This document shows positions 7,955 to 64,000 of a DNA stretch of 64,000 bases, piece after piece (the stretch's first letter is position 1; each line of letters starts with the position of its first letter). The notes under the pieces are model-generated. The model saw nothing but the letters and a program-made list of their open reading frames with translations, did no database searches and had not been told where the DNA came from. A program made the translations under genes and the position numbers. Source of the stretch: Macrocybe gigantea (lineage: Eukaryota > Basidiomycota > Agaricomycetes > Agaricales > Callistosporiaceae); the NCBI GenBank assembly GCA_011319805.1, contig SJRY01000312.1, positions 124,001 to 188,000 of the forward strand. Reading direction: 5' to 3'.

Positions 7955-9945
<1,991 letters not shown>

Positions 9946-20588: not shown

Positions 20589-23500
20589 ATGGTCACGAAC
20601 TCGAGCCACCGACGTTCACCACCGGCGCGATCCAGGATCTGCATCTGTCGATGCCGTAGCCACTGTACCAACTACAATCCATCGTCGGGAAAATATGATG
20701 GCGCCGGAATGATACAGTCGCGCAGCACACGAGATCGTCATAGCTCCGATGACAAGCTCCTCGCTTTGAAGGCAACGCTAACCTCGCAATACCGTCAGTG
20801 GATCTTAAGACGCTCGCCATCACCGAGAGCTTCGATGCGTCTTACTTCACCATCCCCGCCAGATGATCCACTCTATTCCAGCAAATCCCTTGAAACGGGA
20901 CCTTCAATCTGTCGCACTCAATCTTCTCACGAGCCTGCGGACCGTCTTCATGAGACGTTGACAGATTCATATTTGGATCTTGTCAGACCAGAACTCATCT
21001 ATTATGTCGAAATTCCTCTCAGCAGTCCGGACCATCCGCTTATTTTCGTAAAGGATCCAAGCGCTGCTGGCGATTTCCGAGAGGACTTGGCCTTTGACGA
21101 AACGTTTACGCCAAATGCAGGCCCGCATGCATTGAAAGTCGACCCTCGCACGAATGCATGCTTCCTGACTGTCGAAAACCGGGTATGCGAGATCGTACAA
21201 CATCTTTGCAAGATGGATGATTCCGATAAGCTCGATGTCGTACTGACTTTATTGGTGAACTTACTTGATCGCTTGGTTCGGGAGAAGGAGCTGCAATGGT
21301 ATCAACAGCGAACTGAAGATCGTAGCGACGTCGTCCTGGTGAATACTGGTAAGTATATGTTCTCTAGATCTTTTGATGTAGTTATGTGGACTGACCGTTC
21401 TTATTCTATAATCAGAGCATCACTTTCTCAAGCCTTTTCAAGTACAGAAGAATGCTTTCCAGCGGGCAGCATCCCTTTTTATCGTTATCATGCAAAACAT
21501 CTATTTTACTCCTAGGATGGTGCTCCGCGTCCAGCTAGCAGGACTTCGAGATATATTCCGAGCCGGTGGTGCACCCCCAGAGTCAATCGAATCGATACCC
21601 CTCGATCCTCGTCCGTTTTCGTCTCATTTTCGTCTCGACTCACCCCATAGTCAATTCATATTGTGTCCGGCATGTCACCAGAGTTATCCATATCTTCCGC
21701 CCGTTCCCGGCGAGCTACCTGCACCGTTCCACTGCTGTAATCGCAAAACACCAATGAGCGATGTATGCGGGACTCCCCTCTGGCGCTCGCAGACTGTCAA
21801 GAACAATGTTATGCGATATATACCGCAGAAGAAATATCTGGATTACGATCTCAAGTCTTGGTTGGGGCGTCTTATGGCGAGAAAAGATGTGGAGGATATC
21901 ATTGACAACTATCCCAGGGGGTCACCTACGGACCCGGACATGCCGATCCACGACATTTGGGCATCTAAGGTGTTTCGTGCCCTGCAGGATTCTTCAGGCC
22001 AACCATTCCTTCCTTCCCCTGCAAAAGAAGGGCGGCTGGTCTTTGGCCTTTCGGTTGACAGTTTCAACCCTTTTCATAACAAGACGGCGAAGCAGGTCGT
22101 TTCTTCCACCGGCATTTGGCTGTTTTTACTCAACTTCCCTCCTCACATGCGATATCTCGCTGAACATATTTTTCTGGTTGGTCTTATTCCTGGTTGGGAG
22201 AAACCCTCGTTAGACCAGATGAATCCTGTTCTGCAGTTGATCGTAGATGATCTTCTAAAACTCTGGGATCCTGGCATTACATTATCCCGCACGTACCGGC
22301 ATTTTCATGGTCGTTTGTTCCGAGGAATGCTCGTACCATTCATCGCTGATATGTTGGCCCTCCGACAAGTCCTTGGCCTCCCGGGAGCTCCAAGTGCACA
22401 TTATTTTTGCACGGTTTGTGATATAGATATCGATGACATCTATGTGTTGGACAAACGTACTTGGCCAGCGAAAGATGTCGACCATATTCGCCAGATTGCG
22501 ACACTCTGGCGGCGAGCCGAATCCGAGCAGGAGCAGAAGGAGATTTTTAAAGCTTTTGGTCTGCGCTGGTCGGCCTTACTCAATCTTCCCTACTGGAATC
22601 CCGTTCTTTATCCCGTGATAGACTCAATGCATACGCTCGATCTGAACCTGTTCCAACATCATTGCCGAACCTTTTTCAGGATTGATCTTGCTCATCCTGG
22701 CGGGGATGCGTCGGATGCTCTCGTGGAAATCGATCGCGAAGGAAATAAACGCGTGTCAACTACTGCAGATAGGCGATCAATGAAGTCATGTCTGAAGCTG
22801 GTCCGCGAAAATGACTTCGACATGCTCTATAAGATACTGGCTTATAATCGGAAAGTTCTGTATACTATCTGTGCGGATTATGACGTTGGGGTGGCGGAAC
22901 GGTCCTCGGAACGAAATGGGTACTCGCAAACAAGATTTTTGATTGGGTGAGTAAGTTATTTTATGTTTTATCGACAGCCTTACTTAATCGAACCACGATG
23001 CTAGCGCCAAACGAAGAATGACAATTTTTTCAAATCTGACCCAGGCATGGAAACCTCGGAGTCGGAAGATGCTCCTGATTCTGTTCCTGATTCCGAGTAT
23101 GAAGAGACATTGGACGGCGACGGCGATACGGTGCCTCGAGAGGGCGGCATTGATTTACCTAACAAGGACATCGAATCCAGTGTCACTCGGAGAATCATCC
23201 GTCATATCATCGCAGCTGCCGACGGCGACGAGCACAGCATAGATAAAGCTATATCTCAAGGAACTTTTGAGGTCTTCGAACAAATTAAGGACCGCTTTGG
23301 AATTAAGGGCGGGAATAAGGGCGGAAAACACACAAAACGGATGTTCGTCATGTCACTTCTGGATGCAGTAAGCTTTACTCTACGTCTCGTGCACTGCGGG
23401 CCTACTGACGAATCCTGGTCTCCTAGGTGACCGGCGATGACGCGCTGAGACGCAAATTGAACGAATACGCGGATGATAAACTGACTCATCGATTCGGCGC

Positions 23501-33939: not shown

Positions 33940-34048
33940 GGAATTATGGATCGGTACGTGCTATACAATAAATATACCCATAGATAGTTCACTTACCCCT
34001 TTATCACTAGGTATAAGCACGATATCATCTCCTCTGGCAGGGACTACA
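33940..34048 (+). pseudogene. PRP22: 109-bp PRP22 exon-intron-exon fragment
   Basis: Matches 9463-9571 over its whole length with about two differences. It contains the end of one PRP22 exon (GIMDR), the complete intron and the start of the next (YKHDIISSGRDY). It is inserted into or joined to an unrelated coding frame. Because the intron is retained, it was copied at DNA level. Confidence 0.9.
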
Positions 34049-34713
34049 TTCCCCCTTACAGCTCTTCCGCCAGTCCCCCAAACTGGGCCGGAATTACGTT
34101 CAGATGGCGATGGCTCGGGGAAGTCAGCGACAGGTGATCGCGGCCTATTGACAGACGTCACTGGACCCCAACAGTGCGGGCGTACGATCTCCGGCGACAA
34201 CTCAACCCTACTTCCACCTTCCGGTTGCCCTTCAGCGTCAAACAAGGAGTGGCGCCCTTGTGTCTCTGTAGAGTACGAAGTACTACAATACCGGGGTAGC
34301 TATATGCGGTCATCCCGACGTGCCGTATCTTGGGGTTCCGGACCTCGACTTATGCACTGGACTTCGTAGATTATCCTTCATCTTTCAGATCACCCACTTC
34401 CCTCGAGACGTTTTTCTTTTTTTTATCTATGCACTACATCGGTACTCATACCCAACGACGTTTGTAACGCTCTCGAGTCTAATCGAGCCCCATCTGTTGA
34501 ACACCGCGCGAACAACGCGCCTCGTCTTCAAGTTCTCGTTGATCGACTCTTGCGGGATTTTCTCACAAACCTTTCACTACAACCAAATTTACGGCCACGA
34601 GGTGGTTTTTCTCCCTTCGACACCAGCCTGACATACAGGCTTCAAGATAGGAGCGTGCGGGACTTTTTCTACTAGTTCATTGCTTTCATATTTAGGGTAA
34701 GCGACTATCATAC
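34049..34713. other. no gene recognised downstream of the PRP22 fragment
   Basis: Short frames only; some (QSPKLGRNYVQMAMARGS at about 34070) look coding-like but are interrupted by stops. This may be a further gene scrap. Confidence 0.4.
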
Positions 34714-35085
34714 CTACTGCGAACGAGACTGCCATTCAGAGCAATCTACGCGCTCAAGCAGCCTAGGCATGAATGTGACCAACGTCCCCTCGTCCTCCCT
34801 TTGCGGCCTGTCGGGGTCTGACTGTTCCGTCGTTTCCGTGGGGGCGGTTTGTAACTCGCCATCATCCAACTCGATGTTCAAAAAAAAGTGAGAGAAGTAC
34901 CCCAACACTCCGGACTGAACTAAATAGAGCAGGACAAGTGCGTGGATTGATAGGGAGCAAGTAAGAGATGTAAGTGAAAGCACGGAGGGGGAAAGAAGGG
35001 GGTGGAGATAAGGGAAGGCATGATCCAAGGGAACTCTCCTCAAGGCATCCATATATGCCATAACCGAACCCAAAACGCTATGCAT
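34714..35085 (-). CDS. uncertain ORF with a hydrophobic segment
   Basis: About 123 codons. A hydrophobic stretch (LSIHALVLLYLVQSGVLGYF) could be one membrane helix, followed by an acidic tail (DDGELQTAPTETTEQSDPDR) and a clean stop. It reads like the last exon of a fungal membrane protein, but no upstream exons or family motif were recognised. It ends about 140 bp from the stop of the H3-mimic gene, on the same strand. Confidence 0.3.
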   Translation of the reverse strand: MHSVLGSVMAYMDALRRVPLDHAFPYLHPLLSPSVLSLTSLTCSLSIHALVLLYLVQSGVLGYFSHFFLNIELDDGELQTAPTETTEQSDPDRPQREDEGTLVTFMPRLLERVDCSEWQSRSQ

Positions 35086-35226
35086 ACACCAACTGCTGCA
35101 ATTCGTCGAGCAGAGTCATGGTGCATGCAGCCCATGTTCGATTTTTAGCAGGCAATCGCACCTGCATGACGTTTTCTTGCTGTTCTAATGACTCTTTTGA
35201 ATAAATAGCTGCGTAAATCAACCAGA

Positions 35227-36908
35227 TCACTTACTGCCCTTGTCAACCCATCCTGAGAATGGTAACGCTTCCCATCCGCCCTTTCCGGCCACTTTGACCC
35301 ACTTATGACGCATTTCTGGTGGTGTAAGTCGAAATTCCGCGCAACAAAGAGGATTAGTGCATAGAAAGTGAATGTAATCATAGCAACCCTTGTTGTTCTT
35401 GGGCCATTTGTCCCTGAGCGATTCCATGGCGCAACAGACCAGGCATTGGCCCTTTGGGCAATCAAACCCAAAGGGTCGTTTGTCTGCATGGTGCCAGATG
35501 TATTCCGTCATCTTGACGCCATCCATGGAATTACCAGGATCGGAATGGAGAAGAACCACAGACGTCAGCGCTCCAAGGCCCGTATGCTCAGCGACGATAT
35601 TTTTGAAGCCACGTTCGAGGCTCATGCCTTGAAGAAAAATGCCCTGGACCACATCGACAAGGAAGGTGCCCATTGCAGCGCCAATCATTTGCGGCGTCGT
35701 GAATGCGATCAGATCATTTATGACGCCACTGCATAAATGAAAGGATTTGAGCATAAGGGAGCCTAATAATATGCAATAGCCCTACCTTGAGATGTATTCC
35801 TTTATTTTATCAAGTGAGTCACCATGCAAATATGGTCCTCCGCACACCGAAAGATACAGGAGTGTGCGCTTGGCTGTCAAAATAGAACACAACTGTTCGG
35901 GAAGTAGATGTTGGAGTAGCTAAAGAAAAATTCAGCTTTCAGTCTTTTCTGCTGCAAAGCATGTAGCTCACCATAAAAGCGTCATCTTGAGCACTAAGGT
36001 TAGGCGCATAATGCCACTCTGCAGCATGAGGATCGGAATGTGTCTGAATGACGAGCATAACACAGTCAAAACTAAGGTGATATATGAGCCAATGTATGGT
36101 ATTTCAATGCAGCACTGACCGGGTGAGGTCCTCACAGAGCTTATCAATATCTTGCGCGTATCTTTTCCTTCCTCGTGCCGTTCCAAAGTTGAAGGCAATA
36201 GTGCGTGCATACAAGCGATTGCTTATTGCATCCTCATGACGGTACCAGGATTTGACGCTGTGGTATAAGACATCCGATGCATCAGGATGGAGACCCTCGA
36301 GTACTATTGTGACCAAGGCCAAGGGAGTGCCCGTGATGTTGTCGAAAGAAGTGCGGCCGCGAGAGGTGAAACGGATGACGAAATTTGGATTGTAGGGTTC
36401 CAGAGATGCATCTTTGACCAAGGCCTATATTAACCTCGTCAGTCTAGGCCGTCCATGTTTGAGAATAACTTACCGGATAAGGCTTCCAAACATGATCAAC
36501 CTTTTGTTTTTTTGCCTCATCTCTCCTGCGCCTCATCCTGGTAACCCAGCAAGCCGGGCAAATGGCTTTGGCATCCTTGGCCACTGGGCGGGGAACAGGA
36601 ACGCAACTGGCGCACATGACTTTGGGGCAAAAATCGCACTCCAGTACATCTCCTCCATCACCGCAACCACCACACCACTAGAAAAGCATGGCATTAGCTG
36701 AGTTTTATTAAAAGTGATAAATACTTGCAATTCGAGGATTTTTCTCAGTGGCCTCTGGTAACTTAGCCTGAGACTGTGCGATTCTGGCTGATTTACGTGC
36801 TTTCTGAGCAGCTGGGACACCCGTGGTTACATCGGAAGGATCCCCTAGAGGCTTCTTGGGTGCAGTTGCTCCAGTGCTCTTCTTAGCGGTTTGACGAGTG
36901 CGGGCCAT
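35227..36908 (-). CDS. histone H3-tail mimic / PHD-like finger / caspase-CHAT-like protein
   Basis: Six exons give 474 residues from ATG 36908. Residues 2-19, ARTRQTAKKSTGATAPKK, match the H3 tail at 13 of 18 positions (K4 is R, R8 is K, K9-S10 kept); KARKSAR at 36-42 resembles the H3K27 context. A C8 finger, CGGCGDGGDVLECDFCPKVM onward (C62, C65, C74, C77, C82, C85, C100, C103), has PHD/ADD-like spacing with Cys replacing the usual His. Residues 130-360 fit a caspase/CHAT-like fold: VMLVIQTHSDPH (His241), TLLYLSVCGGPY (Cys289), then GAAMGTFLVDVVQGIFLQGM. The C-terminus adds CPKGQCLVCC and CTNPLCC. Intron 1 (36728-36678) is GC-AG (GCAAGT donor); the others are GT-AG. No break is seen. The domain calls for finger and protease are inference; the H3 likeness is read directly. 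Confidence 0.8.
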
Positions 36909-37999
36909 AGGGGAGCAGGTTATAAACGTTGGGTTGCAGTTGGATTCTCATTTGTTAAAGGGTTTTTATACGTGCTACTGGCCTACCATGACTTTTTGGG
37001 CACAAGAGGCCCAACGATATGTCGTCTATTTTACGTGTATCATAGCTAAAATCATCGCACCGAGCATGTCAGATCAAGAGCGAAGGTTGGCCCTTCCCTT
37101 GGCACAGTCTGACAGGTGGCCGGCATCAATCCGAAGCGCATAGCCATGCCTCATGCAACCACCCACTGGCGGTGCTGGGCCGAAGCATGCCACGCAACAA
37201 TGACGCAAAGGGTATGAACAGCCCTTCGCATCACGCCCATGGGTTGATGGTTGCAATGCAATGTAGCATGGGGGACATGGACCGTCCACCCTCACAGCAT
37301 CATTATTGACCAATGATGCTGGGCCACAAGATGCCCCGAAGGGATGCACGGAAAGCATGGGCGGCTTTCCCCACGGCGCTGCCATTGACAGACCACGCCG
37401 GGCATATGAAAATGGCACTGCAACACCACATAGAGAGCATGGACAACTCCCTTCAACGCGCCGCCATGGACAGACGGCGCGGGGTGATAGTTACAGCGCT
37501 ATGCGGCCGATCTGATGGAGATGAATTCAAGTGAGCTCGTAATCCCGACGTGATGCGTAGAGCCAGGGGTGACTCATTCACACCAGTCAAGGATCAGCAG
37601 GCACACTTGCCTCCAACATGCCTGCATGAGAAGCATGGGCAGCTTCCCTCATGGTGCTGTCATGGACCGACATCACCAGGCGGACAAAAACGGCACGCAA
37701 ACACCACGTGGAAAGCATTGACAACTCTCCGCACCACGCCGCAATGGACAAGCGGCGCAGGGTGATGGCTGCGGTGCAATGCGGCCGATCTGATAGACAT
37801 CAAACAAGTCAGCCCAGAATCCAACCCCTGATCCAATGCGTAGAGCCAGGGGTGACTCATTCACACTAGTCAAGGGTTGGAGTTCATGATCAAGTTAGTT
37901 GGAGGGCACGCCCACTCTGAAGAGGCTGGAAGGAGAAGCATGGTGAGCGTTGAATGCAAGCATGGATGACGTGGCACGGATGTCAGCTAGAAATTATCA
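36909..37999. repeat. upstream region with ~283-bp tandem repeat
   Basis: Two adjacent units of about 283 bp share GCGTAGAGCCAGGGGTGACT (at 37555 and 37838), ATGCGGCCGATCTGAT (about 37500 and 37783) and a CATGGACAGACGGCGC-like block (about 37464 and 37744). A weaker copy may start near 37150. The block lies upstream of the H3-mimic gene. No gene is supported in it. Confidence 0.7.
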
Positions 38000-39620
38000 A
38001 CATAGTCACATGCTTCAACCCTGCATCAATCTCGCTTATCTTGCCTGCGTACTGATGGCGCTTTCGAGGGGGACTTTTTTGATCTCTGCTAATCTAGGGG
38101 AAAAGATGGAGTATGAAGGCAAAGAAGAAGGAAAAACGCAAAGAAACATACCTTTGAATGTCGCCGCTGGACGACAACGATGACGACGCAGGCGATGCAT
38201 GGAGGGGGCGCTCAAGCTGACGTGGTGGGAAGGGTGTAGGCCGTGAGCATGGGGCACGGGAGTCTAAGCTGGAATGGCAATGCCAGCATTAAGAAAAGGT
38301 ATGAGGGAGAAACAGAAAAGGGGCTTACATTGATAGTAGAAGAAAGCGTGAATGCTGATGAGGCCGACATAATCTCCAGACGAGCACAGAAAACCGGACA
38401 GGGTTGTCCTTGCGATGAACGAAGAGCTGGCGTGAATGCGAGTCTCTCAGCTACCCGTCGCGTCGGACATGGCTTCCGGCGAGGAAGCAACGGATCCATG
38501 TCTGTGTTGAAAAGGCTAACTAATCGGGATGGGGGTGCAGGGGATGAGGAAATCTTGAGTCGACGAGAAAAATCGTGATAAAATCAGAAGAACTCACTGT
38601 TGAACACCGTTAGAGACGACACTAATGCTGACGTGAAGAGCTGCGTGTCACAACGCCGAATGCCTATGGCGACGTGAGGCGTTGGTGCATGGAGTGGTGA
38701 GTGTTGGAGGCGGCGGGTGAGGGGACGATGGACGGAGGGAGTGTTGGACGGGGTGAGGGGGCGGGGCGATGGGGGATGCTGTGACGCGATGAGAAGAAAG
38801 AAAAAAGAAGAACTCACTTTTGAAGGTCGCTGCTTGGACGACGCCGATGCCTACGTGAAGAGTGGGGAGGCGGGATTGGAGTCGGTGTAGCAAGGAGAGT
38901 CGAAGCTGTGACGCGGTGAGAAGACGAGAAAGAAAAAAAAAAAAAGAAAAAGAACATACCTTGGAAGAGTGAGTGCTGGAGGACACCGATGGCGATGTGG
39001 AAGGCGCTGCAGGGGAATGTTGGAACCAGCATGGCGGCAAGGGGAGGCATCTGACGCGACAATGCCAGCCGGAGGGCCTGGGACGGCGGGGCGTGGGTAG
39101 GGACTTGGGAAGACAATGACGGCGCGCCAGTCATCGTCGTTCGTCATCTCCGCTATCGGCTCGGCGGGGCTGGTGGGTGGCCTGGGCAGGGAGGGGAAAG
39201 GGGAGACGACAACGATGACGCACCGGTCATCGTCGTCTCCGTTGGGCATGGCTGGGGGAGTGGTCAGCGGAGGAAACAGTGAGAGATCAAAGAGATCATG
39301 CTGCCGATGACTCACCTTAGCTCTCCGAGATGACGAGAAAGTGAAGGGGAGAGAAAGAGATACGCTAGAAGTTGGAGGTCGACAAACAAGGGCCGTTATC
39401 TTCCCCGAGCTTGTCGTCGCCATCATCTCATCCCGCTCTCTGCCCACCACTGGCCCATCACGCCCGGCTGAGGGCAGTGGCGCGTCAACGATGAGGTTTC
39501 ACTGTCTCCCTCCGCCCCCACCAACTTCCCTCGCGTCACCGGCCAGACGACGATGACGGGCAGTCGTACCACCTCCCAGCCTCCAGCACTGCCTAGCTCC
39601 CAAGACGGGGAGACGACGAT
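38000..39620 (-). repeat. minisatellite-like GC-rich repeats with splice-donor-like words
   Basis: On the minus strand, units end in GTGAGTTCTTCT or GTATGTTCTTT followed by a T-rich tract (near 38145, 38600, 38815 and 38960), and the units in between are GC-rich (GTCGTCCAGCGGCGAC and variants). Long open frames here are repeat products. It resembles, in inverse orientation, the 1.75-2.8 kb block. Confidence 0.5.
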
Positions 39621-39935
39621 GCAAGCCGACAATGTTCGATGACGCCCATCATCTGCCAATGCTGCCACATAGCACTGAACTGCGGCGTGCATTCCATGTC
39701 CGATACATGACGCTCGAACAGACACACGAGCAAGTGCAGATCATGATCGCTCGTATTGACATGGCCGACCGTATTGCAACACCGAAAGCGGAAAACACGA
39801 CGACGAGTGACTGACGCGCCCTTGTTGCTTCGCACATTCAATCCTGATTCTAGTCATGTACATAATAACTCCTCACCTAATACAGAGCCTGCCCCTATCC
39901 AATTGAATCAAGCCGCGTCCCAAAACCCTAAGAAA

Positions 39936-40915
39936 CATGAACTCTGACGTGTCGATGGGAGCGAGCCCTGGCGCGACCAACTCAAACTCACCCCAGCTCA
40001 AGATTAAGGTCCAAACCGCAGATACAGGGGAGATCTTTACCATCAAGGCCCTTCTCGACTCTCGAGTGGCGGGCCTTATTCATGGACCCCGCCTTTTTAA
40101 AGAAACACCGCATCTCAACACGCCCCCTCACCCGACCGCAATGCAGACGGCACCCCCTGACGAGGACGGCATGATCTGTGGAGTCATCGATCTAGTAATG
40201 CGCTACCAAGACCACTCGGAACACGCTGTCTTTGCCGCCACAGGCTTCGGGCACCAGGAAATGATCTTGTGCTTCCCTTGGCTGAAACTACGCAAACCCG
40301 ACATCGATTGGAAGGAGGGAATGGTCAAGATCAACCGATGTGAACGCGCCTGCCACATCTGTGCACGAGAGGCCATGGAAGAGTGCACACAGGTGCCACC
40401 AGACCAAGGTAGCTACCTGCATGTGCCATGCAGGCCCTGCGCCACACCTAAGCACAGGCGAGGACAAGGACGAACAGCTGGCAATCGGCTGACCCCGAAG
40501 AACTGACTGATGAAATCATTGAGTTAGAGTGACTGGCCTGCTGAGTCCATCCATGCGACCGCCAACACCTCGCAACGGCTAGCAGTTGCACACGAGTAAG
40601 AAGTAGCATACGCGCCATTTGTGACGCCATCCCTGGCCATCCCTGACCACTTGGCACGAATTCGAGGATATATTCTCGAAGGTGGCATTCGATACTGATG
40701 TGATGGGACTACGTGATCGAACGAGTCGATCTTGCATGGCAGGGTATCTCGATGACACGACAGAATCACACACCTCATTCTGGATCGCTTCCAAGAGCAC
40801 AAGCTCTACCTCAAGTGGGAAAAATGCGAGTTCGAATGCACCGTCAACGTTCACGACAGACAGTTTGGGAATTCTGAGCCGAGGAGAGGAAAGGAAGGAG
40901 CTGAAGTAAGTACTT
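39936..40915 (+). pseudogene. Ty3/Gypsy pol remnant (protease and RT pieces)
   Basis: From ATG 39937, LKIKVQTADTGEIFTIKALL is followed by DSRVAGLIHGPRLF, matching the retropepsin region where the family has DSGA; the catalytic DSG is DSR here. RYQDHSEHAVFAATGFGHQE and MILCFPWLKLRKPDIDWKEG are typical of the protease-RT linker in fungal Gypsy elements. After stops, LDRFQEHKLYLKWEKCEFEC at about 40780-40845 is an RT fragment (palm, after YxDD). The parts between are missing. No LTR was found. Dead element. Confidence 0.75.
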
Positions 40916-42411
40916 TTTCTGCCAAACAAAAGGCTCAAATGAGGGACACCTATCGTAACGTAGACGTACAGGTCTTGAAATACTCCACAGAACTCAGAAA
41001 GGAGAGGGGTGGGAGTAGGAGATTGACCCTTTCACTTCGACCACCCCTAAAACGGTCACATGACCAAGTGAGTGCTCGCACTTGATCTTGTGACTTGCAA
41101 TGGAGGTCACAATTAGCCCGTGGTTCAAGTAAAACGTTCCATTCAGAGGCGCGTCACAGCCACACCGAAGCAGAAAATCCAATTCCCTTGGCCTCCTCCC
41201 ATATGATGTCATCCAAAAACTCGCCGCCGCTGTTCAACCTCCTGAAATACCACCGGCCGAAATTCCGTATAGCCGACGTTGCGCGGGGGAGCTTGGACAA
41301 CGCACCACCTTTGAGTGAGCAGTCGAAACGGTGGGCATCATCTTTCATCTCGCTTCGTCGCGTTTAGAGTCTAGCAGCTAATCACCCGATTCATTGCCCT
41401 CCCCCTGGCACAATCGCCTGATTCTGCGTCCTGGTTTGCAGCACCTCGCGGCGTACCGCCCGCCAGAGTCGCGTATAACCGCAAAGTGTACGAGAAGGCT
41501 AACAGCTTAGGGTTAGGGCGACAGACCTGTTCTCGGCGAATAAGCCGTGCATCCGAATCACGAATCTGGTCTGTGCGACACATCTCGATCATCAAGTCAT
41601 CACACGAGCGTTTTTCGTGCACTTGGGATCGAAGGTGTTTCTCCAAGTCGCGGTTAGTGATGTTCTGCGCGTAGCCACTCAACAGTCACACAAGAGCCTG
41701 ATCTTCACGTTGCTGACGAGAGCCCTGAGAGTCACTGGTTCGGCGCAAGGCCTGCGAAAAAAGTGTGACACGAAAAGTGGACTTTCCCGATTTAGATGTA
41801 GCTCCGCGTATCATCCATTTCCCTTATCTCATCAATCGATTCAACGTTCCGGAGGTCTACACTATATGGATTGTAAGGATAAATTATTAATGTCTTTTGT
41901 AAAGGAGAGCGGCGCTTGCCCATTCTGCCTGCTCTGCAGGCAGTTTGGAGATATTCACAATACGACGCGTCGACGCGACACGATAAATTGGATTAGTCAG
42001 CAGATTGATCGTATTCTGGCCGCCCTCGCTCTTCGTTCACTTAGATACTCATGCACAAGCATACAGAAAACGAAACTGAGTTTGATTATGAAGTATTAGC
42101 CCAATACCTTCAAATCCTTCGGAATGGATTTTCTCTCTTGGTCCTCAAACTCGAGATATCAGAGGATAAAGGTCTTCGGAACACAGTTTTGGGAGATTGA
42201 ACACCGATAACGAAAATCCATACCGAAAATTTTCTTCTACGGTACATTTAGAGTTATTTCGGTCACTCCAACATTTTACAAAAATGCCTGTATGATGCTG
42301 CGCAAACTCTGGGCAACTCGCCATGCATGCGTCGGAGTTTCAATTGGCGGTTGCGCCGCACCAGAGTCACGGATAATGGCCTCGAGCAACACGTGCACAT
42401 CAAAAGCGCCT
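40916..42411. other. intergenic, no supported gene
   Basis: Contains an imperfect hairpin near 41051-41095 (GGTCACATGACCAAGTGAGT facing ACTTGATCTTGTGA). At 42170-42260 there are TTTCGG/CCGAAA words like those at 52.3-52.6 kb. No recognisable protein. Confidence 0.45.
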
Positions 42412-42810
42412 TCAGACTGAGATTGTATCTCTCTGCTTCGATTCTAGAAAAGAACCATGACAACGAGTGGGAGGCGAATGATCTAGGAAGCAGCAGACTT
42501 TGAACGTCGGTCTGTTCTTGGGTATGTCTGGCAGAGCATCATGTACATATATGCGCATCATCGGGATCGCACGGGCCTCACCATCTCCATCATCTGCCTT
42601 GGGTTCGGCGTCAGTATCCTCTTGGGTCACTTGCTCGTCCAACTCGATAGAATCATCGTGAGAGATAATTTCTTCAACCGTCTGCATAATCTGATGAGCG
42701 TATTTGAGCAGGCGTTTATTGACGCTGGAATCTTCAAGCGTCGGCATGTGCTGGAGAGAGCGTGCAGCCTTTTTCAATAGAGCAAGCGCCTCATCGGACA
42801 TAGTGGTCAA
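42412..42810 (-). CDS. small acidic hypothetical protein
   Basis: The minus-strand frame begins TTMSDEALALLKKAARSLQH and HMPTLEDSSVNKRLLKYAHQ, then an acidic stretch (DSIELDEQVTQEDTDAEPKA). It looks helical at the N-terminus and disordered later. No family recognised. It begins just downstream of the stop of the outer HNH gene, same strand. The distal part near 42480 may be intron or UTR. Confidence 0.4.
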   Translation of the reverse strand: MTTMSDEALALLKKAARSLQHMPTLEDSSVNKRLLKYAHQIMQTVEEIISHDDSIELDEQVTQEDTDAEPKADDGDGEARAIPMMRIYVHDALPDIPKNRPTFKVCCFLDHSPPTRCHGSFLESKQRDTISV

Positions 42811-42883
42811 AGCAAAAGGTGATAACGTTTATTTGTGCTTCCAAAGAAAAACAAGAAACAGAGGACCAAACAATTGTGATATT

Positions 42884-44160
42884 TACTCGTCATCGTATTC
42901 ATCCGACAAGTCAGATTCGGCAGCCTCCTCGATCAAAACTGAACGAATCTCCTGACCGATAGGGGTTTTCCATATGTCGGTGGAAGGATTGGCCATTTCT
43001 TCGTAGGCTTCGTCAAGAGCGCCGAGGCCCTTGTCTGGATATTCCTCAAGGACACTCCCAAGATGTGGACGCGGAGACAGCGAATGAAATGAATACGCAG
43101 ATAGTCCACTTGCGCAGTGGAGGCAAAGGGAAGGCGTGATGGTAGCCTGATACCACCAGGTAGGTCTTGAAAGATAACAACACGAAGGTTGTCCTGCACG
43201 GTGTTCAGTTATTCAACCCCACTGATAGTGAGATAAACGCACGTCTACATCTACACCAAACGCGTTATCAGAAAAGAGATGCTCAAGCTTCTTGCTGATC
43301 GTGAGAGTGTTGTCCGGGTTCCTGAATGGCCTCATGGCAGATTCGAAAGGGGGTTGCCAGCACTGAGTTGCGTCAAGTAGGTGTTACAAACGTAATTGAA
43401 CAGACAACTACCTCTAGCGCCCAGACTGGAGGTGCAGTCCACGTCACCGTGGTCTTGGTAGCGCCAGTAAAGATACAACGGCCACGATCGCGCTGGTTAG
43501 CGGCAGATTGGATGGCATCATCAAGGACGTTCTAAAAACAGTCAGTTGGGCTAGGTACAGCAGACGGAACACTTACGATTACTTGGTAGGGCGCATAATA
43601 GGATCGAGGCGCCAGCTGTTTCAATTCTGTGTAGCTAGGAAATTCTCCCCGTCCGCAGTCAAAGTATACCAGTTTGCTGTCTAACGAACACATGGTGGGC
43701 ATGTGCATGAGTTCTGAATAGGAATGTACATACCTGCACAGACCATGTAATCGCCGGGTTTGACTAATTCATTTGATTGATTGGACAATGGTTGATCGAT
43801 AGAGCTGGCTTGGTACGTAAGAAGATTCCACCTTTGAACACGGATGGGACACAAGGCAATCGGCTTCTTTTTTTTGCATGTATCCATGAGACGCAGCCAC
43901 CGATAAAGTGTCGCCACATCAATCTGAAATCTCCTGGTGTCCAGCCCTATCAATGTCAATGAGCGGCTCGATTCAGGTCATGCAACAACCTGACCAACCT
44001 GCAACCAGCACAATCTCATCGCGGACTTGAATAAAAATAAAGACATTTCGATTTTGGAGTATGGATTTCTTGGACAACATATGACTATGATAACAATTAA
44101 TAGGTGTTCAATGCAGTATCAGTTGGGCATACCATGGGGACATGATGGTCGAGGAGAAAG
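42884..44160 (-). CDS. HNH-type nuclease-domain protein (outer copy, complete)
   Basis: Minus-strand exons: KSILQNRNVFIFIQVRDEIV; GLDTRRFQIDVATLYRWLRL; YFDCGRGEFPSYTELKQLAP; then NVLDDAIQSAANQRDRGRCI and FTGATKTTVTWTAPPVWALE, the C-x-(I/V)-T/F-G entry of fungal HNH_2-like domains; then DNAFGVDVDV; VVIFQDLPGGIRLPSRLPFA; ending EEAAESDLSDEYDDE at 42884. This architecture is common in Agaricomycete HNH proteins of unknown function. It shares an upstream region (44.0-44.2 kb) with the divergent HNH gene at 44213. The part above 43275 lies in the inverted repeat and is duplicated; the 3' part is unique. The exact start is unresolved. Confidence 0.65.
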
Positions 44161-44212: not shown

Positions 44213-45450
44213 ATGCCTGGTAGAAATGTAAAAAGGGAGGGAGAAACGAGTCGTAACCTCTTTATCCCTCTTCCTGTCCATAACATTGCCATGGAGTGTT
44301 ATTTCAACAAAAGCGAGAGAAACGTACACATCTGGGCCAGCATGTTGGATAAAAAGGGCTTTGCATCGGTCATCGCAGGTCAGGTGCTCATATTCTGTTT
44401 GTATCTGGTTTAACGCCGAATGGCATGAATGAATCGCAGGTTGTTGGGTAGAGAGCACGACATGTAAAACGATCACCTGCAAAGCCATATATCAATGGCT
44501 GGAGCAGATCATCACCAATACCAAAAGTAAGCAAGGCTATAGAATGCGATGTCGTGCGCCAAGTGCCCCCGAGGTTTTGTTCTTTGTAGAATGGGGGCTG
44601 ATCCGACCGACCGACTTTCGCATAATACACGATGCGATCAATATGGAAAACGCATCACCATCTTCAATAGATATAATTAGACCGAGCGACGATCCAATGA
44701 AGGCCGGACATTATATGATATTTGAATGTGGGTGACATTTCATGGCAGGTCAGGAGATATTAACTATGGTATAGATAGGCACCACGTATTGCAGTGCTTT
44801 GTGCCACACTTGATTACACAGATTACGCACAGACCGAATAAGACCACAAAGAAGAAGCAAGTCAGGAGTCGAGTAGGTCGTCTGTTTTTTTTTTTTTTTT
44901 TAATTCAGAACTGACCTAGGATTCGGTGTACAAAGGACAGGACGGTCCGCAAGCAGGTCCGGTTGCGAGATATGAGGTGCCGGGTGACAGGCACAGTCGT
45001 ACCTCTGCGCGCAATCGACAATCCTAGAGGGCACAACCATACCGCTTTTCACGTGTGCCACATTTATCCTTTCGCTTTGCTCGACAAGGTGAGCGATGTC
45101 GAAAGCTTTGACCAAAATGAAAGCGTTCTGATAGGAAACAGGCTCCGGCATATCTAAAACCATATCTCGGGAAAAACAAGGGAGACTCGCCAAATAATGC
45201 AATTCTGATGAGAGCGGACGTCCATAGCTTGTTCGATAATTATCAATTTGGCTACTTCGAGACAAACGGAGATGGTTACCGTCTGGTAAAATGGGAAAAA
45301 AGCGCGGCATGTTGGCTTGACAACGGCACGGCGTTGTTGAATGCCCTGAATCCCATGGCAGAAAGTGATATCGAACCTGCGCTCATGGATTACCATTTCT
45401 TAATAGGACTATCATGGCATTTCATGGGCACAGGTTACAATACCGGATAG
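44213..45450 (+). CDS. HNH-type nuclease-domain protein (left-arm copy)
   Basis: Exons from ATG 44213: ECYFNKSERNVHIWASMLDK; CKTITCKAIYQWLEQIITNT (about 44463-44525); WGLIRPTDFRIIHDAINMEN; then RDMRCRVTGTVVPLRAID and TAFHVCHIYPFALLDKVSDV, where CRVTG and HVCHIYP give the Cys/His entry of an HNH domain; then RADVHSLFDNYQFGYFETNG and YHFLIGLSWHFMGTGYNTG with a stop at 45448-45450. It is divergent from the HNH gene at 42884-44160 and convergent with the small gene ending at 45468 (17 bp between stops). A poly-T tract (44885-44902) lies in a probable intron. Confidence 0.65.
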
Positions 45451-46145: not shown

Positions 46146-48626
46146 ATGTCACGATCCTCGAGTCCAGAGTCTATAATCGGCTTCACCCGTATCTTGTTCG
46201 ATGAGCCGCCCAAAGTCAGTTCCGCAGTAGCCCTTGGAAAAAGGAAGATCCGCTCTCTGTCACCCAAGCCGGATGCCATCCGCACACCACCCAACAGTCG
46301 GCGTGCAACTGTCGTTTCCATCTCTTCCAGGGAAAAGTCTCCTCTGCCATCACCACAAGACCCTCTTGTTCTCAGCGACAGCGATGATTTTCCGATGCAA
46401 GCATCTGGCCCCATAGATACATTTAGGACATTACTGAAGGAGGACCTTCTGGCCGAGTTTCTGCAATCAGCCGCACTTTGGCCCAACCCCGCTTTCATTC
46501 GTGACGCGCTGCAGCGTGAAGAGTTCAAACTAGGCAACTCCCACCCGTTCAAGGTAGTTTTCATTGAGGATCCTTATCGGAAAACAACGTCAGAAGCATG
46601 TGCTTTTGCCTCACATATGGTCCCGGTGATGTTTTCGGACAACGCAGAGAAGGAATTCTTTCTTAACTCCTTCGCCTCTGATGGCTACATGTACCCAAAG
46701 GGTGAAGAACCGGCTACGGAATATTACCTCTGGGAGATGTTGGCATTGGCAATGACGTTTCTACGCAGTCATAACTGGTCATTTGAGGTGGAGTTGATGC
46801 CCTGGAACAAATTCAAGTTTGCCATTGTCAGCCGGAAAGGGGAAAGCTGGAAAACACTGGTCGATCAGGATCTTGTCATGGGGGGGTCGATTTCTCGGTC
46901 GATTTTTTGTATGTACTTTATCACTTTCTTATGGTTCTTGGCCGAGTTGTACTACTCCAGGCATCCACGCACGTCCCTTGCACTCGATGCATCTCAGTTA
47001 GACGGGTACCTCTTTGGGCTCATAGAACTGACTCAACATGCAGCTGTTTGGCCCAACCCCGATCAACTCTCTCGCGCTGGTCAAAAATGCGCTATGGCTG
47101 GGATTCTAGAGCGGATTTATGAAGATACGCTACGAAAACCATATCCGCCATTTTTTACCGCCCTCAACGATCACATCCTGCATGCTGAACTGGAATGCAT
47201 GGTATTGAAGCGGGATTACAGCGATAACGGGTTGCATGTCATCTTTCCAGACATGATAGACCGCCGAGCAAAGCTTGAAGAGCTGCAAGGCGAAACAAAA
47301 AGCACCTACTTGGACCATCAGAACGCTTTCAAACCAAGATGGCTAGTCCAACCGATCAACAGACAATTCAGCCACATCGGTAAGCTACGAGTCTTGATGA
47401 TGGGTGGGATGGTGGTGCACGTCATCCAAACTCGGCCAAATACTAACAACACGTTGAGCGTCACGGAGCTGAAGTCGATCCCACCGTTGCGGAGGTTTTC
47501 TGAAATGAATGCCGCCCTGAATTCCTCAGATGAACGATTAAACATGTGGGAGGCAACTCAGGGAAAACAGGAACTCCACGACCACTGCACTGCTTTGCTC
47601 CGTGCCTTGGTGGAAGAAGAAGAGGCGATGCTACAGCCGGGGCAGTTTTCTGATCTTCGTCTGCTGTGCCGATTGGATATGGCCGTCTACTACGATAGCA
47701 GGGAAAAGGCGCACTCGTACTACTGCAACGAAATTACGCGCAATTACGGATGTGATATGTGGCTATCGCGCTGTTTAGACCGAGACCTGGCTCTTGATAC
47801 GCTCTGCGACATAATGGGCTCCGTCTGCGCCATGGTGCAATATAGTGCATCAGAGTTGCAAAAGGAAGAGGTTATCTTCAAGGCTCCATTTGGTCAGAGA
47901 TCCTTTCTCTCTGGTGGCCTGCCAATTGATGCATTAGCTAGTTTACGATCACCCCGTGCATGCTGAGGAACTGGCCCACACCGACATGCTTTGGAAAGTC
48001 CCAAGGATATACCATTTTGGCCGAGAAGCTATGCGAGAGCAAGATCTCCACACGCTGGCGCCTGGGCGGGAGTTGAATGACGAAGTAATCAACTGCTACC
48101 TCGAGCTGATCCAACAAGCATCCGATAGCTGCCATTCAGCGGCTATTGGCCTACGAAAGCCGCTCAACGTTTATTGCTTTAAGTCATTTTTTTATGAAAA
48201 ATTATCAATGCATGATTGGTTAGCGGTACACCGATGGAGCAAGGTCGATATCTTTTCGAAGGATGCCGTCTTCATTCCGATTCACCAAAGCAGCAACCAT
48301 TGGATTGGTGCTGCTATCCTCCCGCAAAAACAAACTATAATAGGGTATGACAGCCTTTCCGACATCAAGCCTGATATTTTTTCCGTAAGCATTTCGTCTT
48401 GTTGCGCCCTTTGATACAACTGAGCTGTTGCAGAATATACGACTGTACTTGACGAAGGAGCATAATGTGAAGAAAAAAGAAAAACTTGTGCTTGATGGGT
48501 GGGAGGATTTAGCACTAAAAGTAAGCATTCCTTTCAAGGGCATTCAATGCGTCCGATCACACTTCGCAGGGCCCTAAACAGACGGATGGCTTCAACTGCG
48601 GTGTATATATGTCGCAGTTCTTTTGA
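46146..48626 (+). CDS. Ulp1/C48-type SUMO-protease-domain protein between the arms
   Basis: A long first exon (from MSRSSSPESIIGFTRI, 46146; an ATG at 46122 is also in frame) has a disordered Ser/Pro leader and a large unknown region with two related pieces, AALWPNPAFIRDALQREEFK and AAVWPNPDQLSRAGQKCAM. The C-terminal peptidase: LNDEVINCYLELIQQ, VYCFKSFFYEKL, KDAVFIPIHQSSNHWIGAAI (catalytic His), IIGYDSLSDIKP (Asp), then across two introns (about 48386-48433 and 48521-48569) GPKQTDGFNCGVYMSQFF (Gln and Cys). The complete His-Asp-Gln-Cys set is present. A frame change is needed near 47940-47950 (DALAS to VYDHPVHAEEL), either a short intron missed by eye or a 1-nt lesion. Ulp1 enzymes remove SUMO; fungal transposons often carry them. 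Confidence 0.7.
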
Positions 48627-50086: not shown

Positions 50087-51323
50087 CTATCCGGTATTGT
50101 AACCTGTGCCCATGAAATGCCATGATAGTCCTATTAAGAAATGGTAATCCATGAGCGCAGGTTCGATATCACTTTCTGCCATGGGATTCAGGGCATTCAA
50201 CAACGCCGTGCCGTTGTCAAGCCAACATGCCGCGCTTTTTTCCCATTTTACCAGACGGTAACCATCTCCGTTTGTCTCGAAGTAGCCAAATTGATAATTA
50301 TCGAACAAGCTATGGACGTCCGCTCTCATCAGAATTGCATTATTTGGCGAGTCTCCCTTGTTTTTCCCGAGATATGGTTTTAGATATGCCGGAGCCTGTT
50401 TCCTATCAGAACGCTTTCATTTTGGTCAAAGCTTTCGACATCGCTCACCTTGTCGAGCAAAGCGAAAGGATAAATGTGGCACACGTGAAAAGCGGTATGG
50501 TTGTGCCCTCTAGGATTGTCGATTGCGCGCAGAGGTACGACTGTGCCTGTCACCCGGCACCTCATATCTCGCAACCGGACCTGCTTGCGGACCGTCCTGT
50601 CCTTTGTACACCGAATCCTAGGTCAGTTCTGAATTAAAAAAAAAAAAAAAACAGACGACCTACTCGACTCCTGACTTGCTTCTTCTTTGTGGTCTTATTC
50701 GGTCTGTGCGTAATCTGTGTAATCAAGTGTGGCACAAAGCACTGCAATACGTGGTGCCTATCTATACCATAGTTAATATCTCCTGACCTGCCATGAAATG
50801 TCACCCACATTCAAATATCATATAATGTCCGGCCTTCATTGGATCGTCGCTCGGTCTAATTATATCTATTGAAGATGGTGATGCGTTTTCCATATTGATC
50901 GCATCGTGTATTATGCGAAAGTCGGTCGGTCGGATCAGCCCCCATTCTACAAAGAACAAAACCTCGGGGGCACTTGGCGCACGACATCGCATTCTATAGC
51001 CTTGCTTACTTTTGGTATTGGTGATGATCTGCTCCAGCCATTGATATATGGCTTTGCAGGTGATCGTTTTACATGTCGTGCTCTCTACCCAACAACCTGC
51101 GATTCATTCATGCCATTCGGCGTTAAACCAGATACAAACAGAATATGAGCACCTGACCTGCGATGACCGATGCAAAGCCCTTTTTATCCAACATGCTGGC
51201 CCAGATGTGTACGTTTCTCTCGCTTTTGTTGAAATAACACTCCATGGCAATGTTATGGACAGGAAGAGGGATAAAGAGGTTACGACTCGTTTCTCCCTCC
51301 CTTTTTACATTTCTACCAGGCAT
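50087..51323 (-). CDS. HNH-type nuclease-domain protein (right-arm copy)
   Basis: Mirror copy of 44213-45450 with the same exons and stop (50087). See that entry for motifs. No differences that change the protein were noticed. Confidence 0.6.
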
Positions 51324-60782: not shown

Positions 60783-62358
60783 AATGGCCACGTCTGAGGA
60801 GGAATGCAGCGCAAGGGCAAATATTATATTCCCCTCAATTGTTGTTTCTATTGTTTGGTATTCAGAGCCTGATGCAATCCAAGGAAGGGAACTGAATTAT
60901 TGTCCTTTTGTTCCAATCTTGGCATCATTTGATCTAAGGGTAGATGACACAGCGTAACCTTCTCCGTAAGGTCAGTATGTCCTTGGCATAGAAAGGAGAG
61001 GTACTTGGTAATGAGGGTATATCCACCACAAGGTTTAGCCAGAATGGAAAGAGACAATTGTGATATTGTAATGAAGATTATACAATCAGATTACTGATCC
61101 CTTAGTTCATACTGCCAGTTCCACAGGAAGAGGAGTACGATGTCGACCTTGAAAGCAACGAATCCATGGCATGATCCTGACATTGAGACTGTCAAAAAAT
61201 CATAATTTCTGATATTTGCAAATTTACCTTGGCAGTTTACTGTCAAGGAGTCGCACATCGGATGGTCTGAGATTGACAAGTGATCCCTGGTGCTGCACCG
61301 ATGCTCGCATTATGACTAGATCACCTTGTATACCAAGCAATCCATTATGAGGAAGTCTAACGTGTCGCTTGAAGAAAACACAAAAGAGAGAAGTGCATTG
61401 CCGAACAGTGATGCGAAGGAAGAAGTCATGAACATGACTCTGTATCGGTGTGTCATCTAGGACATCTTTGACATATGGATATCGTGAACCTGAAGGGCAA
61501 GAAACCAGTGAATGGGTGTGGACCAAAACGTTGATAGGATTGGTATTATGAGAAGAGTACAGACGACTCCTGAGAAAGATGCTGCGAGTGCGCTATTTGT
61601 TGCTGATGAGCACGCGCTGGCATATGTCAACAAGAAGAAGATGTACCTTAAGAGGAGAAAGGTATCAGCATCGATTTACCATGGTATGATGGAGAGAATG
61701 TGCGAAGAAGGCAGTTATATGGTTATATATGCATGTATAGATCTTCATGTTGACAGGCAATGCAACAGGGGCGTCCATCACAGACAAAGGCCATAACTAG
61801 CATAAGGGAGAAGCCAATTGTTCCTTGATGGATGTATTGGCTTCGTCGTAACCTCCTTCCATCAACTGATTATGAGCAATGAAGAACAGATAAGTCAAGA
61901 TCTACCCACTTGAATAACTCAGTGCTGGCACCATCGTCGCCCCATTCTGTCGAATTACAATGAGAAATGGAGTAGATGGATCAGGGTCAACCCAGTTAAT
62001 GACAAATAGCTCTTTTGTACCGAAAAAAGAACAATAGAGCAGCAGAAAGGCTGCAGTTGATGGGTAGGTCTTGCTTCGGAATTGCTTGAGCAGCTGAAGG
62101 GTATCTACACGGGTCGGTAGTGAGTCGGAAGTTGATTCAACCAAACAGCAAGCATCTGGTTGAGCCGATGCAAGTGGAGGGAGGGAGGAGCGTAAGGTAG
62201 AAGACACCCATATCCTGCAAACATCATGTGTCATTACTTGGCCATGACAGAATCAACCAAAACGGGTGTCCGGACACGAAGACGCTGCGATATGAAGAAC
62301 AAGTGCTTTATTGTGAAATCAGACACCCCTTTGTCCTCGAGTTGAGTTCCATGGCTTG
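60783..62358 (+). repeat. left arm of second palindrome
   Basis: Position x pairs with 124783 minus x throughout. The arms run 60783-62358 and 62425-64000 with no net length difference at either end, and all open frames are mirrored exactly. The spacer is 66 bp (62359-62424). The right arm reaches the window edge, so the true outer boundary is unknown. Confidence 0.95.
61226..62234 (-). CDS. hypothetical gene, left palindrome copy
   Basis: Mirror of 62549-63557. It begins at ATG 62234 near the palindrome centre and is transcribed outward. See the right copy for motifs. Confidence 0.45.
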
Positions 62359-62424: not shown

Positions 62425-64000
62425 CAAGCCATGGAACTCAACTCGAGGACAAAGGGGTGTCTGATTTCACAATAAAGCACTTGTTCTTCATATCGCAGCG
62501 TCTTCGTGTCCGGACACCCGTTTTGGTTGATTCTGTCATGGCCAAGTAATGACACATGATGTTTGCAGGATATGGGTGTCTTCTACCTTACGCTCCTCCC
62601 TCCCTCCACTTGCATCGGCTCAACCAGATGCTTGCTGTTTGGTTGAATCAACTTCCGACTCACTACCGACCCGTGTAGATACCCTTCAGCTGCTCAAGCA
62701 ATTCCGAAGCAAGACCTACCCATCAACTGCAGCCTTTCTGCTGCTCTATTGTTCTTTTTTCGGTACAAAAGAGCTATTTGTCATTAACTGGGTTGACCCT
62801 GATCCATCTACTCCATTTCTCATTGTAATTCGACAGAATGGGGCGACGATGGTGCCAGCACTGAGTTATTCAAGTGGGTAGATCTTGACTTATCTGTTCT
62901 TCATTGCTCATAATCAGTTGATGGAAGGAGGTTACGACGAAGCCAATACATCCATCAAGGAACAATTGGCTTCTCCCTTATGCTAGTTATGGCCTTTGTC
63001 TGTGATGGACGCCCCTGTTGCATTGCCTGTCAACATGAAGATCTATACATGCATATATAACCATATAACTGCCTTCTTCGCACATTCTCTCCATCATACC
63101 ATGGTAAATCGATGCTGATACCTTTCTCCTCTTAAGGTACATCTTCTTCTTGTTGACATATGCCAGCGCGTGCTCATCAGCAACAAATAGCGCACTCGCA
63201 GCATCTTTCTCAGGAGTCGTCTGTACTCTTCTCATAATACCAATCCTATCAACGTTTTGGTCCACACCCATTCACTGGTTTCTTGCCCTTCAGGTTCACG
63301 ATATCCATATGTCAAAGATGTCCTAGATGACACACCGATACAGAGTCATGTTCATGACTTCTTCCTTCGCATCACTGTTCGGCAATGCACTTCTCTCTTT
63401 TGTGTTTTCTTCAAGCGACACGTTAGACTTCCTCATAATGGATTGCTTGGTATACAAGGTGATCTAGTCATAATGCGAGCATCGGTGCAGCACCAGGGAT
63501 CACTTGTCAATCTCAGACCATCCGATGTGCGACTCCTTGACAGTAAACTGCCAAGGTAAATTTGCAAATATCAGAAATTATGATTTTTTGACAGTCTCAA
63601 TGTCAGGATCATGCCATGGATTCGTTGCTTTCAAGGTCGACATCGTACTCCTCTTCCTGTGGAACTGGCAGTATGAACTAAGGGATCAGTAATCTGATTG
63701 TATAATCTTCATTACAATATCACAATTGTCTCTTTCCATTCTGGCTAAACCTTGTGGTGGATATACCCTCATTACCAAGTACCTCTCCTTTCTATGCCAA
63801 GGACATACTGACCTTACGGAGAAGGTTACGCTGTGTCATCTACCCTTAGATCAAATGATGCCAAGATTGGAACAAAAGGACAATAATTCAGTTCCCTTCC
63901 TTGGATTGCATCAGGCTCTGAATACCAAACAATAGAAACAACAATTGAGGGGAATATAATATTTGCCCTTGCGCTGCATTCCTCCTCAGACGTGGCCATT
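62425..64000 (-). repeat. right arm of second palindrome (continues past window)
   Basis: Inverted copy of 60783-62358. The innermost shared words are ATGGCTTG on the left and CAAGCCAT on the right. Confidence 0.95.
62549..63557 (+). CDS. hypothetical gene, right palindrome copy
   Basis: Exon 1 from ATG 62549: DVCRIWVSSTLRSSLPPLAS, LLKQFRSKTYPSTAAFLLLY and FVINWVDPDPSTPFLIVIRQ, ending near a GTAGAT donor at 62877. A later exon (about 63255-63557) has HSLVSCPSGSRYPYVKDVLD, DTPIQSHVHDFFLRITVRQC and DLVIMRASVQHQGSLVNLRP, a pattern (YPYV..VLDD.PI..H.HDFF...RQC......GDLV.MR....NLRP.D) seen in Agaricomycete proteins of unknown role. The exons between (62.9-63.25 kb) were not resolved. It is head-to-head with the identical left copy, so both would share a promoter-size gap of about 315 bp that includes the palindrome centre. 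Confidence 0.45.

Follow-up and report, generated by a model that had tools for sequence, protein, structure and literature searches.

Histone mimics and readers of the H3 tail

Intramolecular competition between a histone-like stretch and a histone reader has a precedent in BAZ2B, in which a histone-mimicking linker lowers H3 binding by the protein's own PHD. For the BAZ2B PHD with H3(1-21), a value of 5.78 uM has been measured, and the PHD alone binds H3(1-21) 9-fold tighter than PHD-BRD, a difference that the authors credit to the histone-mimicking linker (PMC5663869). The reader side of such a pair is represented by CHD4, BHC80 (PHF21A), TRIM24, and AIRE-PHD1, which are described as readers of H3 with unmethylated Lys4 (PMC3471955).

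The window, i.e., the whole stretch of 64,000 nucleotides of Macrocybe gigantea DNA that was analyzed, carries a predicted gene in which an H3-like stretch and a finger resembling H3 readers occur in one chain, about 40 residues apart at the sequence level. Among the matches listed in searches of the open PMC literature, no fungal H3-tail/PHD fusion was found. Our leading reading of this arrangement, to which we give a probability of about 0.45, is that the tail lies in the groove of the protein's own finger, so that the reader would be shut until nucleosomal H3 competes.

The predicted gene and its copies

The gene lies on the minus strand and is laid out as follows.

36908 to 35227, minus strand: whole predicted gene, six exons, five introns, 474 aa
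36729..36908, minus strand: exon 1, residues 1-60, H3-like tail and linker (open frame; GC donor GCAAGT)
36474..36677, minus strand: exon 2, residues 61-128, PHD-like finger and basic stretch (splice sites)
36120..36424, minus strand: exon 3, residue 129 to part of 230, where the downstream domain begins (open frame, splice sites)
35972..36071, minus strand: exon 4, remainder of residue 230 to 263, with His241 at 36038-36040
35786..35919, minus strand: exon 5, residues 264 to part of 308, with Cys289 at 35842-35844
35227..35728, minus strand: exon 6, remainder of residue 308 to 474 and the stop TGA

With splicing predicted from the sequence, the joined exons give an open frame of 474 codons that runs up to the stop TGA (35229-35227). 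The five introns measure 48-57 bases and all end in AG, the first being GC-AG and the other four GT-AG. The predicted start, the ATG at 36908, is preceded by an in-frame stop with no other in-frame ATG in between. The predicted protein begins MARTRQTAKKSTGATAPKK. Its exact C-terminal end is uncertain because GTAAGT, a possible donor, overlaps the final codons of exon 6.

A second full copy, located on contig C146, departs from this one at 7 points over 1682 bases. The window's own contig additionally carries two 5' fragments, one of which extends into exon 3, with the other stopping at the end of intron 2; the gene's own DNA has matches at 4 places in the genome only. The protein sequence of exon 2 is the same in all four copies. 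Between the full copies there are 6 coding differences, comprising 5 silent changes and one V469I, and the silent excess over 322 silent and 1100 replacement sites (P 0.003) corresponds to a dN/dS of about 0.06, a value that rests on 6 changes, ignores transition bias, and may compare alleles. A pseudogene was considered as well and rejected, on account of the uninterrupted frames in the two full copies and the predominance of silent changes (5 of 6) between them. The locus has the appearance of a real gene under constraint.

Relatives were sought in a protein database whose fungal content is unspecified, and no match was returned for the whole protein (E up to 0.001, 3986 candidates), for residues 225-474 (E up to 10, 439 candidates), or for the exon 6 frame (E up to 10, 11 candidates); because of that unspecified content, these negatives are no proof of an orphan gene. 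Additionally, a genome search with residues 129-474 at E up to 10 gave nothing past the known copies, and across the protein database and the 41 Mb assembly no relatives emerged beyond the two full copies and the two 5' fragments.

The H3-tail mimic and its origin

36852..36905, minus strand: H3-tail mimic, residues 2-19, 13/18 identical to H3

The first-pass annotation of this locus placed a mimic of the H3 tail at the very N-terminus of the protein, and this is borne out both by the 13 identities across residues 2-19 and by phmmer, which matched H3 peptides among solved structures with a best E of 0.017. The mimic differs from H3 at positions 4, 8, 13, 14, and 17 (K4R, R8K, G13A, K14T, and R17K), and the predicted free Ala start and R2 of H3 are kept. 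Given an assumed amino acid composition and an assumed 15,000 proteins, the chance of matching H3 at 13 of 18 positions is ~2e-12 per protein and 3e-8 over the 15,000. Behind the tail, a Pfam search with the full protein as query (E up to 1) gave no match to a histone fold.

In the 41 Mb assembly, a degenerate DNA pattern of the protein start matches exactly at 7 places, namely three ordinary H3 genes (a pair on C40 and a single one on C233) and the four copies of this gene; its backward control matches at 0. A longer start pattern, with as many as 3 mismatches allowed, matches at 15 places and its control at 1; of the 15, 7 are the exact ones and the remaining 8 all stand at 3 mismatches. One such 3-mismatch place, G000:C50:948357-948386, encodes M-A-N-S-D-Q-T-A-R-K, which is H3-like in part and likely reflects chance.

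Four of the five changes in the mimic fall at Lys/Arg positions, which make up 7 of the 18 tail residues (P 0.047, for a comparison chosen after looking), and there is a slight hint that modifiable H3 positions are the ones that may have been changed.

On balance, we favor an H3 gene of this genome as the ancestor of the tail over convergence, because the codons of the tail match those of the C233 gene above chance. Over codons 2-21, 14 residues are common to the mimic and the C233 gene, and 10 of these 14 codons are identical, compared with 3/14 for each of the two C40 genes. The matches expected by chance are 4.5 with the gene's own codon use (P 0.002) and 3.5 with CHAT-frame codon use (P 0.0002), with the qualification that C233 agrees best among the three H3 genes that were compared, which leaves a choice effect, and that at least 7 genome places match histone H3 protein. 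The codon agreement amounts to 9/10 ahead of the H3 intron position, a cut that was chosen afterwards.

The same codon identity with the C233 gene, which suggests fairly recent descent, would also suit an H3-like start that is a recent accident of capture and has no role of its own, such that only the remaining protein matters; 5 of the 18 tail residues have already changed. This account is quite improbable in our estimation, given that the sole tail difference between the full copies, at codon 16, is silent, and that the tail sits at the exact N-terminus, next to a finger that resembles H3 readers.

The PHD-like finger

36549..36674, minus strand: C8 PHD-like finger, residues 62-103 (Cys spacing, phmmer matches)

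The zinc ligands of PHD fingers are C4HC3, with His as the fifth. At this locus, the eight cysteines (Cys 62, 65, 74, 77, 82, 85, 100, and 103) follow the PHD zinc-ligand spacing Cx2C-x(8)-Cx2C-x4-C/H-x2-C-x-Cx2C, with Cys82 in the fifth ligand place, where the aligned CHD4 has His, and a D-G-G-acidic-hydrophobic run is kept within the aligned stretch. Against solved sequences, phmmer returned 39 matches at E up to 10, the best being CHD4 PHD2 (5.3e-5), PHF21A (5.7e-4), TRIM24 (0.0021), PHF12 (0.0027), and AIRE (0.0067), with further matches to ATRX (E 0.027) and ALFIN-LIKE 3 (E 0.091). The earlier description of a C8 finger with PHD/ADD-like character thus agrees with both the cysteine spacing and the PHD fingers that phmmer retrieved.

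When residues 1-128 were the only query, the Pfam PHD profile (PF00628) scored 14.2 bits (E 0.046), short of the cut-off of 24, and gave no PHD match when the whole protein was the query. The finger is named PHD-like because of this sub-threshold score and because Cys replaces the usual His ligand. Elsewhere in the genome, the PHD profile has 34 other matches, 18 of them above the cut-off, one of those only together with its neighbors; the finger as a genome query, at E up to 10, found its own four copies only. The ADD domain has a GATA-like finger ahead of its PHD-like part; in this protein, residues 1-61 hold no Cys, so no GATA-like finger stands in front of the PHD-like finger.

By analogy with its closest solved relatives, we infer that the finger prefers H3 with unmethylated Lys4. 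The ALFIN-LIKE family reads methylated Lys4, and therefore the ALFIN-LIKE 3 match counts against that specificity.

A reader proposed to be plugged in cis

We propose that the H3-tail mimic occupies its own PHD-like finger within one molecule and that nucleosomal H3 would outcompete this plug, upon which the reader would open. By virtue of Arg4, Lys8, Thr14, and Lys17, the mimic may behave as a permanently "unmodified" ligand, and it would evade Lys4 methylation and Lys14 acetylation because it has Arg at 4 and Thr at 14. A worm-like-chain estimate with 42-52 linker residues, which takes persistence length and distance as assumed and the linker as flexible, places 6-7.5 mM of tail near its own finger. 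The estimated occupancy of the finger by its own tail is accordingly high over a wide range of affinities (almost always at a Kd of ~5 uM, near the 5.78 uM of BAZ2B, 92-94% at 500 uM, and 54-60% at 5 mM), such that the closed state would prevail even if the Kd were 500 uM. It is this local-concentration estimate, along with the precedent of the BAZ2B linker, that led us to choose the self-plugged reader as the preferred explanation.

Several points weigh against it. Lys4 of H3 is Arg in the mimic, and no statement that readers of this class accept Arg4 was found among the matches listed in a search of the open PMC literature. Furthermore, the His ligand of the finger is replaced by Cys and its Pfam score is below the cut-off, and ALFIN-LIKE 3 (E 0.091) is among its matches. 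A structural model of the tail plus the finger, built with no alignment and with intron residues inside, reached a mean pLDDT of 50.9, with the finger mostly under 50.

Tail and finger could also have different partners. In the main rival explanation, the tail acts in trans as a lure that baits other H3 readers or modifiers, and anchoring of the protein on chromatin would be a separate task of the finger. A lure of this kind would suit the predicted free Ala start and the retained R2, and there are parallels: the Sgo1 N-terminus (Ala-Lys-Glu-Arg) is bound by Survivin through its H3 pocket in a like manner (PMC9253516), and another report lists G9a and SNAIL1 as additional mimics (PMC5663869). 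We nevertheless consider the lure rather unlikely, since the chain itself has, some 40 residues behind the tail, a finger that resembles readers of exactly that tail, and the estimated local concentration would favor self-binding.

If the cis-plugged reader is true, a near-literal H3 tail with an N-terminal Ala would constitute a built-in lock on a chromatin reader; to our knowledge, other histone mimics are a few residues long or are H3-like mainly in charge. Descent from an H3 gene would, in that case, show how a histone mimic arises, and the changes at H3-modified positions would reveal the marks that the plug must avoid.

The downstream region

The region behind the finger (residues 129-474) has no Pfam, NCBIfam, or PADLOC match, and a comparison with solved structures yielded one chain at E 0.7. 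Near its end lies the following stretch.

35341..35460, minus strand: Cys-rich C-terminal stretch (Cys 398, 403, 406, 407, 423, 431, 436, and 437), without family match

The motif HSDP occurs twice on the minus strand, at residues 241-244 (36040-36029) and 369-372 (35547-35536), each time behind a hydrophobic run, as either an internal repeat or a coincidence.

A caspase/CHAT-like domain had been proposed for this region on the basis of His241 and Cys289. The two residues do lie 48 apart at the positions given; as a sign of a caspase, however, the pair is little more than chance, because, when residues 128-474 were shuffled 2000 times, a comparable His/Cys pair turned up in 121 cases. Compared with a profile made from CHAT domains of this genome, for which 19 of 29 loci were used after 10 had been dropped before counting (near-duplicates, fragments, second readings, and one damaged His strand), residues 128-474 score 19.0, a value that 6/60 shuffles reach. 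A segment that was cut afterwards aligns locally to CHAT above 40/40 shuffles, with Cys289 set onto the catalytic Cys of the genome's CHAT domains, but in global alignment it is equaled by 10/40 shuffles. Ser comes directly after His241, a position taken by Gly or Ala in each of the 24 CHAT readings, and the His-Cys spacing of 48 compares with 41-42 in 21/24 readings and 46, 55, and 56 in the others, several of the 24 being derived from one gene. A model of exons 5-6, made with no alignment and with intron residues inside, has a pLDDT of 35.4, too low to speak for or against a caspase fold; His241, in exon 4, falls outside it. On the profile, shuffle, and motif results, the caspase/CHAT identity of the downstream domain is not supported, although it is not disproved either.

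The associated mechanism, in which a caspase/CHAT-like protease would be activated once the tail leaves the finger, as an alarm for chromatin state, accordingly appears very unlikely. It draws on the placement of Cys289 in the local alignment, on the 29 CHAT match rows in the genome (26 above the cut-off), and on the fungal CHAT proteases that are known to trigger gasdermins (PMC12881547), and is countered by the missing family match, the shuffle results, the Ser after His241, and the deviating spacing. Similarly far-fetched at present is a composite in which a captured H3-gene start, a histone reader, and a new effector would have been brought together, such that an unmodifiable tail shuts the reader, exposed unmodified H3 opens it, and a new, distantly caspase-like domain fires. 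For the self-plugged reader, our guess is that the downstream domain acts as a regulatory or enzymatic module that the protein delivers to chromatin.

Genomic neighborhood

Among the 20 of 110 frames of at least 110 codons that were scanned, frames for a tnp2-type transposase (21412-22947) and for a Ulp1-type protease (47938-48411) were recognized, and the neighborhood of the gene is read as carrying DNA transposons. Contig C146 shares 34309-43277 with the window, broken at 42256 by about 1.3 kb, and most of 9575-33939 is missing from it. Three near-identical pairs of PHD stretches, judged by eye, lie on different contigs; near-identical gene pairs on different contigs suggest that both haplotypes are present in the assembly, and the copy on C146 may be the other haplotype.

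Other features of the window were also observed. A direct repeat of ~112 bases (9463-9574 and 33940-34051) flanks the 24.4 kb missing from the related stretch of C146, where a single copy of the repeat is found, consistent with an insertion in the window or a deletion in C146. The 229 bases at 34089-34317 are inverted in C146, with 9-base overlaps at both ends, as in a small inversion or a short element. Upstream of the gene, 37345-37592 and 37623-37875 have about 75% mutual identity. Two pairs of facing frames, 61227-62252 (minus) with 62531-63556 (plus) and 44903-45382 (minus) with 50155-50634 (plus), start with the same residues within each pair, pointing to probable large inverted repeats.

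This setting raises the question of whether the gene is cargo or an accessory of a mobile element, its tail and finger steering the element into, or shielding it in, particular chromatin. The transposase and protease frames within the window would fit such a role, as would the second full copy and the two 5' fragments on shared blocks and the DNA at 39900-43300, which gives 31 genome match rows, its own place included. We judge the idea unlikely, as the DNA of the gene itself occurs at only 4 places, the shared blocks stop at differing points, and the C146 copy may be a haplotype counterpart.

Comparison with known systems

The resemblance to fungal CHAT proteases consists of a hydrophobic run ending in Cys that aligns with theirs; the present protein differs from them in having no profile match, no His-Gly/Ala, and another His-Cys spacing. 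With the ATRX ADD domain (E 0.027), the protein has in common an all-Cys finger of similar spacing, but it is without the GATA-like finger in front. The PHD readers of unmethylated Lys4 (CHD4 PHD2, PHF21A/BHC80, TRIM24, and AIRE PHD1) are closer, with both the Cys spacing and the D-G-G-acidic-hydrophobic run in common, whereas the finger described here has Cys for the His ligand and remains below the Pfam cut-off.

On the side of the mimic, Sgo1 likewise has an H3-like N-terminus outside the histones that is anchored by its first Ala; this comprises four residues and is bound in trans by the BIR domain of Survivin (PMC9253516), whereas the mimic in the present gene extends over about 18 residues and has a finger in the same chain. 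BAZ2B is comparable in combining a disordered, basic, H3-like stretch with an H3-reading PHD in one chain, for which intramolecular competition has been proposed, and its binding has been measured (PMC5663869); in the present protein, binding in cis is predicted from the sequence. The BAZ2B mimic lies behind the finger as an internal, lysine-rich linker and is H3-like in charge (PMC5663869), whereas the mimic of this gene is a near-literal H3 tail that is N-terminal and precedes the finger.
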